Below, one piece after another: positions 55,201-57,233 of a stretch of 60,294 nt of DNA (within the stretch, counting starts at the first letter, position 1; each line of letters opens with the position of its first letter). The DNA is taken from the NCBI GenBank assembly GCA_030673825.1, contig JAUTCS010000102.1:1-60294 (forward strand). The letters are read 5' to 3'. Made by a program: the position numbers and the translations under genes. The stretch is from Verrucomicrobiota bacterium JB024 (GTDB lineage Bacteria > Verrucomicrobiota > Verrucomicrobiia > Opitutales > Cerasicoccaceae). The notes beneath the pieces were generated by a model, which worked only from the letters and a program-made list of their open reading frames with translations, was not told where the DNA came from and searched no databases.

Positions 55201-55229
55201 TTGACAACCGCCCCCGCCAAACGGATAGT
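55201..55229 (+). promoter_or_regulatory. Promoter of the leuA leader
   Basis: A perfect -35 TTGACA (55201-55206) is separated by 17 bp from GATAGT (55224-55229), 4 of 6 to the -10 consensus. The predicted start near 55236 is only a few nucleotides before the ATG of a leucine-rich mini-ORF, so its message would be almost leaderless. This is the best promoter match noticed in the window. Confidence 0.6.
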
Positions 55230-55241
55230 TCCGTCATCATC

Positions 55242-55292
55242 ATGAACGTCGCTTCATTCCGCCGCCTTCTTCTTACGGCGCTTCTCCCCTGA
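55242..55292 (+). CDS. Putative leucine-rich attenuator leader peptide
   Basis: A 16-codon ORF encodes MNVASFRRLLLTALLP. Five of 16 residues are Leu, in a run of three and a pair. Four of the five Leu codons are CTT and one is CTC, whereas neighbouring genes use mostly CTG and CTC. It starts just after a TTGACA/GATAGT promoter and ends inside a hairpin, 176 nt before leuA. This is the organisation of amino-acid attenuation leaders such as leuL, although the peptide is not recognisably similar to E. coli LeuL. No good ribosome-binding site is present. Confidence 0.5.
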   Translation: MNVASFRRLLLTALLP

Positions 55293-55414
55293 GGGGGAGA
55301 TGCGGGATGACTCATGCCCCCTTGGCGGGGCGCGGCCGCGAGACGGCCAACCGGACACATGATCAGCGAGCCCTTTTTGCCGGGCCCTCGGTGTCCCCAC
55401 TGCATTGCACGCTT
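55284..55414 (+). promoter_or_regulatory. Alternative hairpins of a putative leuA attenuator
   Basis: CTCCCC (55284-55289) pairs with GGGGAG (55294-55299), covering the leader peptide's last Leu codon and stop. GGGGG (55293-55297) can instead pair with CCCCC (55317-55321). GCCCC (55316-55320) can pair with GGGGC (55327-55331). These A:B, B:C and C:D pairings are mutually exclusive. Further on, GGACAC (55353-55358) pairs with GTGTCC (55391-55396). Short T-tracts occur at 55374-55378 and 55411-55414, but no textbook terminator follows C:D, so the switch could act by another route. Confidence 0.45.
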
Positions 55415-55468
55415 GTGTGCTTTTATCGGTTTATCTAATATCACTCTTTTTTCCGAAAACGACTTTTC

Positions 55469-57172
55469 ATGAAACCCTCCAGCATTCGTAAGTACGTACC
55501 CTTCCACCAGCGCTTCAGCATCCCGCTGAAGGACCGCCAATGGCCGGACCGCGTAATCGAACAGGCGCCCATCTGGTGCAGCGTCGATTTGCGCGACGGC
55601 AACCAGGCTCTCGCCATCCCGATGAACATCGAGGAAAAGCTGGAGATGTTCCGCCTGCTCGTACAGGTCGGTTTTAAACAGATCGAGGTCGGCTTCCCCT
55701 CGGCCTCGCAGACGGAGTTCGACTTCCTGCGCCGCCTGGTCGATCAGGGCGAAATCCCCGACGACGTGCAGGTCCAGATCCTGGTCCAGGCCCGCGAACA
55801 CCTGATCCGCCGCTCCTTTGAGGCGTTGAAGGGCGTCAAGCGCGCCATTGTGCACCTCTATAACTCCACCTCCCCCTTGCATCGCAAGATCACCTTCTCC
55901 GACGCGAGTAAGGAGGACATCAAGGCCATCGCCATCAAGGGCGCGGAGCTGGTACGCCAGTTGGCCGACGAGGCCGAGGCCGAAGGTAGCGAGATCACCA
56001 TGGAGTACTCCCCGGAGAGCTTCAACGACACCGAGATCGACTACGCCATTGAGGTCTGCGAGGCCGTCATGGCCGTGTGGAAGCCCACCGTCGAGCGCCG
56101 CATGATCCTGAATCTGCCCGCCACCGTCGAGTGGACCACCCCCAACGTCCACGCCGACCAGATCGAGTACTTCTGCCGCACTATCAAGGGCCGCGAAAAG
56201 GTCTGGGTCTCCCTGCACACCCACAACGACCGCGGCACCGGCGTGGCCGCCACCGAGCTGGGCCTGCTGGCCGGCGCGGACCGCGTCGAGGGCACGCTCT
56301 TCGGTAACGGTGAGCGCACCGGCAACCTCGACATCGTCACCGTCGCCCTGAACATGAACAGCCACGGCATCGAGACCGGGCTGGACTTCTCCGACCTCCA
56401 GCACATCCGCGCCGTCTATGAGCGCTGCACTCGCATGGGCGTGCACGAACGCCACCCCTACGGCGGCGAGCTGGTCTTCACGGCCTTTTCCGGCAGCCAC
56501 CAGGACGCCATTAAAAAGGGCCTGGACCGCCGTAAGAAAACCGGCGACGAGCACGGCGTCTGGGAAGTCCCGTACCTGACCATCGACCCCGAGGACGTTG
56601 GCCGCACCTACGAGGCCATCATCCGCATCAACAGCCAGAGCGGCAAGGGCGGCGTGGCCTACATCATGGACACCGAACACGGCCTGGAGCTGCCTAAAAG
56701 CATGCACCCCGAGGTCGGCAAGGTCGTCAACGACGAGGCCGACCGCCTGCAAAAGGAACTCAACGCCGACGAGATCGGCGAGGTCTTCGAAAAGAACTTC
56801 GTCAACCTGGACGAGCCGCTGGCCATGGGCGAGTACGAGCTGTTTCACCAGACCGAGACCCCCGGCATGGTCCGCTGCATGGCGCAGGTCACCTACCGCG
56901 GCGAGCCCCTCCAGATCGAGGGCACCGGTAACGGCCCCATCAGCGCCTTCGTCGATGCCATCGAGCACCAGGGCTGGAAAAACTTCCGCCTGACCGACTA
57001 CCGCTCCCACGCCGTCGGCAAGGGCTCCGCCTCCAACGGCGCGGCTTACGTCCAGCTCCAGGACACCGAGAGCGGACGCCTGACCTGGGGGTGCGGCATC
57101 GACACCTCCATCGAGATGGCCGGCCTGAAAGCCCTCGTCTCGGCCTTCAACCGCCTCCAGCCCGGCGCGTAA
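55469..57172 (+). CDS. leuA: 2-isopropylmalate synthase (long form)
   Basis: LeuA condenses acetyl-CoA with 2-oxoisovalerate, the first committed step of leucine synthesis. The 567-residue product is the long (about 560-residue) actinobacterial/yeast-like type. The TIM-barrel catalytic region has WCSVDLRDGNQALAIPM, the FKQIEVGFPSASQTEFDF segment, WVSLHTHNDRGTGVAATELGLLAGADRVEGTLFGNGERTGN and HERHPYGGELVFTAFSGSHQDAI. The C-terminal region is the leucine-sensing LeuA dimer domain (with ISAFVDAIEHQGWKNFRLTDY). Leu-rich leader features upstream suggest transcriptional control too. A terminator follows at 57201-57233, so it is monocistronic. Confidence 0.93.
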   Translation: MKPSSIRKYVPFHQRFSIPLKDRQWPDRVIEQAPIWCSVDLRDGNQALAIPMNIEEKLEMFRLLVQVGFKQIEVGFPSASQTEFDFLRRLVDQGEIPDDVQVQILVQAREHLIRRSFEALKGVKRAIVHLYNSTSPLHRKITFSDASKEDIKAIAIKGAELVRQLADEAEAEGSEITMEYSPESFNDTEIDYAIEVCEAVMAVWKPTVERRMILNLPATVEWTTPNVHADQIEYFCRTIKGREKVWVSLHTHNDRGTGVAATELGLLAGADRVEGTLFGNGERTGNLDIVTVALNMNSHGIETGLDFSDLQHIRAVYERCTRMGVHERHPYGGELVFTAFSGSHQDAIKKGLDRRKKTGDEHGVWEVPYLTIDPEDVGRTYEAIIRINSQSGKGGVAYIMDTEHGLELPKSMHPEVGKVVNDEADRLQKELNADEIGEVFEKNFVNLDEPLAMGEYELFHQTETPGMVRCMAQVTYRGEPLQIEGTGNGPISAFVDAIEHQGWKNFRLTDYRSHAVGKGSASNGAAYVQLQDTESGRLTWGCGIDTSIEMAGLKALVSAFNRLQPGA

Positions 57173-57200: not shown

Positions 57201-57233
57201 ACAGGCTGCCCCTCACCGGGCAGCCTGTTTTTT
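57201..57233 (+). terminator. Rho-independent terminator after leuA
   Basis: ACAGGCTGCCC (57201-57211) pairs perfectly with GGGCAGCCTGT (57218-57228) over CTCACC and runs into T6. Confidence 0.92.

Follow-up and report, generated by a model that had tools for sequence, protein, structure and literature searches.

A probable leucine-responsive leader-peptide element before leuA in the Opitutales, with a conserved hairpin at the leader stop codon

The DNA between promoter and leuA in Verrucomicrobiota bacterium JB024 is likely to be a leucine-responsive leader-peptide control element of that gene, a claim that leaves the output step aside. The region belongs to contig JAUTCS010000102.1, positions 1 to 60,294 of which were analysed and are called the window below, and it carries two of the features by which a ribosome-mediated attenuator is recognised, a short Leu-rich open reading frame (ORF) between promoter and gene and a hairpin lying over its codons and stop. 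Since conservation of the leader ORF, of its Leu run and of the stop hairpin extends well outside the genus, leucine control through ribosome position is the best reading, and to judge from the sequence comparisons presented here this is a real, conserved leucine leader and a variant of known ribosome-position control. No description of a leuA leader peptide in Verrucomicrobia, or under names beginning with Opitut-, was found in the open-licence PMC literature.

The Leader Region in the Window

The promoter, the ORF of 16 codons (five for Leu, CTT in four cases), the stop hairpin and the 176-nt gap before leuA that an earlier note on this DNA had described were all recovered at the positions that follow.

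55201-55229, + strand: promoter, read from the sequence as TTGACA (55201-55206), 17 bp and GATAGT (55224-55229).
55242-55292, + strand: leader ORF MNVASFRRLLLTALLP, read from the sequence, 16 codons from ATG at 55242 to TGA at 55290-55292.
55255-55309, + strand: outer helix CATTCCGC (55255-55262) / GCGGGATG (55302-55309), enclosing the stop hairpin and the small hairpin.
55263-55280, + strand: small hairpin CGCC / GGCG with Leu codons 9-11 in its loop, paired in four of four genus members.
55284-55299, + strand: stop hairpin (A:B) CTCCCC / TGAG / GGGGAG, arms 55284-55289 and 55294-55299, -9.8 kcal/mol.
55316-55331, + strand: C:D hairpin GCCCC / GGGGC, arms 55316-55320 and 55327-55331, -9.0 kcal/mol.
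55334-55348, + strand: hairpin GGCCG / CGGCC, 100% of cells paired and never varying (three genus members with letters there).
55353-55396, + strand: helix GGACAC / GTGTCC, 82.6% of cells paired and one two-sided change (four genus members).
55407-55424, + strand: weak hairpin GCAC / GTGC (stem 55407-55420, -3.8 kcal/mol) followed by TTTT, a doubtful terminator candidate.
55469-57172, + strand: leuA ORF, encoding a 2-isopropylmalate synthase of 567 aa and presumed to be the target, named from the earlier note and by homology.

The leuA ATG at 55469 stands 176 nt past the leader stop. Leu codons occupy positions 9, 10, 11, 14 and 15 of the leader (CTT CTT CTT ... CTT CTC), and the stop hairpin contains the last of these together with the Pro codon and the stop. 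The rarity of CTT in neighbouring genes, also claimed earlier, is borne out by counts of 0/43 Leu codons in leuA and 11/254 in eight ORFs at the leuA end of the window versus 4/5 in the leader (Fisher p 3.6e-5). Over 20 loci CTT makes up 40/88 leader Leu codons versus 71/894 in leuA, with corresponding numbers for CTA of 13/88 and 11/894. Rare Leu codons such as these would raise the sensitivity of the ribosome to leucine shortage.

Much of the remaining structure is confined to close relatives. The small hairpin, with one two-sided change, belongs to the genus only. The outer helix, graded as weak, pairs in 90.3% of cells among the four genus members, and family f8 has another long-range helix at the same place. 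The C:D hairpin is 100% paired in the four genus members, has no T-run behind it and is not general in the order. Absent from the earlier note, the weak hairpin at 55407-55424 is kept in sequence in loci L001-L003 and missing in L004. Over the 49 loci used for structural tests (see below) no general long-range helix from the early leader ORF to downstream RNA was seen (mean z -0.12), such a helix being convincing by eye only in families f8 and f24 and the window's genus, and there is little downstream structure after the leaders (mean z -0.54).

A second ORF behind the stop hairpin (ATG at 55307) was rejected as a candidate; it is open in L001 and L002 and has early stops in L003 and L004. Past leuA, at 57201-57233 of the window, six T in a row accompany a strong hairpin, so terminators with a U-tract are present in this DNA even though the leader has none.

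Conservation across the Order

Searches found leuA in 10/10 genomes of the window's family and gave a match in 131 of the 177 genomes of the order, the orthologues sharing 57-92% identity. We have used 119 upstream regions, leaving out 10 genomes with a distant homologue only as well as G113 and G119 (contig edge). A detector that asks for a short ORF with at least four Leu in its last 10 codons and a GC-rich stem at the stop, with no LLP required, responds to 38/119 orthologous upstream regions as against a mean of 0.4/119 in dinucleotide shuffles. The LLP-stop pattern alone occurs in 33/119 regions, two of them by chance (L126 and L210, dropped). Tests of terminators, antiterminators and pairing with the leuA start were made on a set of 49 loci, comprising 38 from the detector, eight from the LLP-stop pattern and three from inspection (L006, L200 and L201). 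A promoter-anchored scan added 16 more, five of the Leu-run type and eleven in family f14, and because of this origin their promoter spacing is not independent. Promoter spacing and Shine-Dalgarno counts refer to the resulting 65 loci and the count of stop positions to the 54 outside f14.

A short leader ORF precedes leuA in 10/10 genomes of the window's family and at 65/119 loci of the order, in 12 of 18 families, with the same Leu-run type of leader at 54 of the 65. Conservation of a Leu-rich ORF upstream of leuA, the check that the earlier note had proposed, is thus positive and reaches far beyond the genus. By family, leaders are present at 10/10 loci in f1, 2/2 in f3, 4/4 in f4, 4/4 in f5, 7/7 in f8, 6/14 in f11, 11/12 in f14, 1/1 in f15, 6/14 in f20, 8/11 in f21, 1/1 in f23 and 5/5 in f24. 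They were not found at the leuA loci of f2 (13), f17 (12), f22 (4), f19 (3), f9 (1) and f12 (1), and at 54/119 loci of the order none was detected by detector, pattern, inspection or promoter-anchored scan.

Family f14 has a distinct, shorter leader at 11 of its 12 loci (L204-L207, L209, L210, L212-L214, L216 and L217), with few Leu codons, a different hairpin and a peptide ending in ALRL(S/T/I). In most of these the stop is followed by ACGCACGATC, and the complementary GATTGTGCGTC is present in L204 and L206, the two that were read further; in L212, L213 and L217 the frame extends to HDL-stop.

As a pattern for the hairpin before other genes, CTNCTYCCYTRRGGG has 15 occurrences in the 10 family genomes, nine at leuA and six at other sites where no leader is evident. 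Applied to 387 genomes of the phylum, CTNCTCCCCTRRGGGG has 14 occurrences, of which 10 lie at leuA within the order and four elsewhere, and its reversed control pattern has five; being strict and missing many known leaders, CTNCTCCCCTRRGGGG does not establish absence outside the order.

Rfam 15 holds no matching family. L001-L010 gave no match up to E 0.1 and the window itself has two tRNAs only. The whalefall-1 family (RF01762) was rejected as an identity for the leader, since it scores 18.9 bits versus a gathering threshold of 37, with its first stem alone aligned at the stop hairpin. RF01762 has matches in 0/177 genomes of the order, where the control was likewise matchless, and 20 leader loci gave no match to it up to E 1.

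The Stop Hairpin

Outside f14 the leader stop codon lies in the hairpin loop at 37/54 loci, at the end of the 3' arm at 5/54 and after the hairpin at 11/54, with one further locus, L198, showing no compact stem by the rule. In 15 read-through loci the frame crosses the hairpin to a stop codon at its end or at most 7 nt beyond, giving peptide ends such as LLPRGE, LLPVGE, LLPAGE, LLPWGE and LLPLGE; the sixteenth non-loop case, L200, has a different, upstream hairpin. Both the loop-stop and the read-through form occur inside family f8.

The commonest stem is CUCCCC/GGGGAG, but CUUCCC/GGGAAG (L132), CUUCC/GGAAG (L202), CUCCU/AGGAG (L201) and GCCGGC/GCCGGC (L208) are found at the same place. With different stems at one site, the conserved trait is the place of pairing relative to the Leu codons and the stop. 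The in-frame register CUN-CUN-CCN is kept in most loci despite varying third bases. Covariation, a second check suggested in the earlier note, is weakly positive in formal counts from small alignments, and the counts are low. In the genus 93.1% of cells pair, with two double changes, and 46 of 500 shuffles are as high; in f8 the figures are 92.0%, one double change and 73 of 500.

Proline immediately before the stop recalls TnaC, where the ribosome arrests at Pro-stop in the presence of tryptophan, and one might imagine that the LLP-stop end of the peptide similarly arrests the ribosome, so that control would lie in the nascent chain. A total of 32/65 leaders do end in LLP or FLP and then stop, four Treponema leuA leaders end in VLP-stop and E. 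coli pheL in TFP-stop. However, in 15 loci the frame continues past LLP through the hairpin, and L176 and L177 end in LLPV. The Pro codon doubles as a GC-rich hairpin arm, which explains its presence without nascent-chain arrest, and we regard arrest of this kind as very improbable.

Translation Start and Codon Evidence

On the assumption that transcription begins some 7 nt past the -10 box, the window's transcript is predicted to have its 5' end roughly 6 nt before the leader ATG. The same arrangement recurs throughout the group. TTGAC is found 32-60 nt before the leader start codon at 64/65 loci, versus 6.2% of random positions, and at 48/49 in the promoter-independent set. The start codon follows the best -10 match by a median of 10 nt (quartiles 8-14); many -10 matches are poor and the transcript starts are predictions. 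Since the start codon is so close behind the predicted -10 box, the leader ORF is probably leaderless, or nearly so, throughout the group. Two departures from the enteric model had been pointed out in the earlier note, an ATG almost at the transcript start and the lack of a T-run after the last hairpin; both are real and hold for the group, the first on predicted starts.

Substitutions offer a modest indication of selection on the leader peptide. Differences among leaders number 150/157/222 at codon positions 1/2/3, a weak test, and single-base codon changes are divided into 100 synonymous and 91 non-synonymous (pairwise and non-independent counts), with 1 synonymous and 10 non-synonymous in the window's own genus. 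This weakness of the codon-position evidence for coding would suit a reading with no leader control at all, only a structured 5' region or a protein site combined with a chance ORF. Yet 12 families share the frame register, the stop at the hairpin, the Leu enrichment and the placing of the start with respect to the promoter, and we consider a chance ORF highly unlikely.

The Output Step

In the classical scheme A:B, B:C and C:D would alternate, with an intrinsic terminator, hard to recognise or specific to a lineage, at C:D or later. A strict scan reports a hairpin with a T-run after the leader at 8/49 loci (L006, L111, L112, L113, L116, L123, L208 and L211), the genus keeps C:D, three of its four members keep the weak hairpin with TTTT or TTTTT, and related Treponema leuA leaders have strong T-run terminators by eye. 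The strict count is to be compared with 3.8 (sd 1.9) in shuffled sequences, though, and the scan is not blind, since the four ilvB leaders of the window's family all pass it. None of the strict hits falls in the window, where the hairpin before TTTT reaches just -3.8 kcal/mol. A loose scan gives 26/49 versus 18.6 in shuffles, so that an intrinsic terminator is not general. A B:C antiterminator can form in the window, but pairing of the B arm with downstream RNA is not enriched over the 49 loci (mean z 0.26, standard error 0.14). Taken together these numbers leave classical attenuation a rather doubtful reading for the order.

The earlier note had combined two proposals, that leucyl-tRNA supply acts through ribosome position and that the segments alternate as A:B, B:C and C:D. 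The first holds up as the best reading of the conserved leader, Leu run and hairpin. As for the second, A:B is general, C:D pairs in the four genus members and B:C is not enriched, and alternation finds no support outside the genus.

Control might instead be translational, the leader RNA pairing with the leuA start and a stalled ribosome freeing it, as in the proposal for the actinobacterial LEU element. By eye, GGCCTA in the leader ORF of f8 faces TAGGCC just before the leuA start, and the pairing test singles out L196 (z -5.4) and L193 (z -2.3). Over the 49 loci, however, this pairing has a mean z of -0.02 with three values below -2, and a Shine-Dalgarno-like motif precedes leuA in only 4/65 leader loci. 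Simulated ribosome positions give no clear on/off structure for leuA, and in L001-L004 how open the leuA start is does not depend on the stall. Translational control of this kind appears improbable.

Premature termination of transcription without a canonical U-tract, perhaps Rho-dependent, is the most likely option for the output, and we put it forward with some reserve. C exceeds G between leader and leuA at 60/65 leader loci versus 34/54 loci at which no leader was found (Fisher p 1.0e-4), with upstream controls at 40/65. The C excess is compatible with Rho-dependent termination, to which it points weakly, and it may merely reflect an untranslated, unstructured leader.

Comparison with Known Leaders

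The enteric leu leader, which the earlier note had taken as its model, turns out not to be the closest one. E. coli leuL (Rfam Leu_leader) resembles the window's leader in having Leu codons ahead of leuA and in using rare ones (CTA in leuL), but the test applied to the window's leader reveals no stop hairpin in it, and a clear terminator follows. The leader of the E. coli pheA attenuator, pheL, does have such a hairpin. In both cases regulatory codons are followed by Pro and stop, and in pheL TTC CCC TGA lies inside the same kind of hairpin, with the stop in the loop of CU(U)CCC/GGGAGG, CTTCCCCTGAATGGGAGG, so that the topology is shared. In contrast to the window's leader, pheL senses Phe, its 5' untranslated part is longer, and an intrinsic terminator with a T-run comes after it.

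A second likeness is to Actinobacteria. LeuL1 of S. lividans is described as a Leu-run leader before leuA that is transcribed leaderless and lacks a typical Rho-independent terminator, with other Actinobacteria referenced (PMC8079986), leuL and leuA attenuation are listed in a review of C. glutamicum (PMC8709942), and Leu-run leaders occur across Actinobacteria, where in the LEU element the Leu run and the Shine-Dalgarno box of leuA pair and form a pseudoknot (PMC1262725). The Leu-run leader before leuA, its leaderless start (predicted here) and the lack of a typical terminator are shared, whereas in the window's type the Leu run pairs beside its own stop and leuA is mostly without a Shine-Dalgarno box, unlike the LEU element. 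A Shine-Dalgarno-like motif precedes leuA at 6/54 loci without a leader. In form the nearest systems are the stop hairpin of E. coli pheL and the leaderless, terminator-less actinobacterial leuL.

Terminator-bearing relatives are seen in Treponema and other Spirochaetes (L045, L050, L053 and L054), where leuA leaders ending in VLP-stop have a start codon just behind the -10 box and, by eye, T-run terminators.

The JB024 genome has a further leader of this general kind. On the minus strand of contig 4 of G000, about 133-208 nt upstream of a copy of ilvB (L256), lies the Val/Leu-rich leader MKFNLVAVLVSVVVVLVTSTASARV. Leaders of the ilvB type were found in L256, L259, L260 and L261, 4/13 of the ilvB upstream regions read, starting 39-41 nt after TTGACA (40 nt in L256) and followed by a strong intrinsic terminator; the ilvB leader matches no Rfam family up to E 0.1. 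Narunsky et al. (PMC10272879) make the case that ilvB is commonly attenuated through a uORF. The L256 and leuA leaders share a start close to the promoter and branched-chain codons, and differ in that L256 has a terminator and no stop hairpin. An ilvB leader with an intrinsic terminator in the same genome shows that leader control operates in the lineage. Leaders before trpE, leuC, leuS and hisG were not found by the last-10-codon rule in 10 upstream regions each, negatives that are weak since the same rule missed the ilvB leader seen by eye.

Proposed Mechanism and Significance

From the anatomy of the leader and its conservation, both of which are observed, we infer translation of the ORF, leucyl-tRNA as its signal and a response in the following direction. 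RNA polymerase would start a few nt before the ATG, so that a ribosome on the leader would begin at or beside the 5' end of the transcript. The Leu codons would lead it straight into the hairpin, whose 5' arm is made of the last Leu and Pro codons. When leucyl-tRNA is ample the ribosome would reach the stop and leave, the stop hairpin would re-form and leuA expression would be low; when it is scarce the ribosome would wait on the Leu codons, holding the hairpin open or covering it, and leuA would be expressed.

A speculative extension is that Opitutales have a minimal attenuator in which the stop hairpin might be the whole of the conserved switch, read by ribosomes starting right at the 5' end and dispensing with a dedicated antiterminator and an intrinsic terminator. 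Rho-dependent termination, pausing or mRNA decay, whichever is the output, could then conceivably be tied directly to opening of the hairpin, and a moving stop codon, inside the loop in certain genomes and directly behind the 3' arm in others, could, equally tentatively, tune how long the terminating ribosome holds the hairpin open.

If the leucine-responsive reading is right, this is an order-wide case of leucine leader control together with a natural series of stop positions around one hairpin. It would make it possible to test by what step a leader lacking a U-tract terminator, a lack reported for actinobacterial leuA too, lowers expression, and what minimum of structure is enough for a ribosome-position switch.
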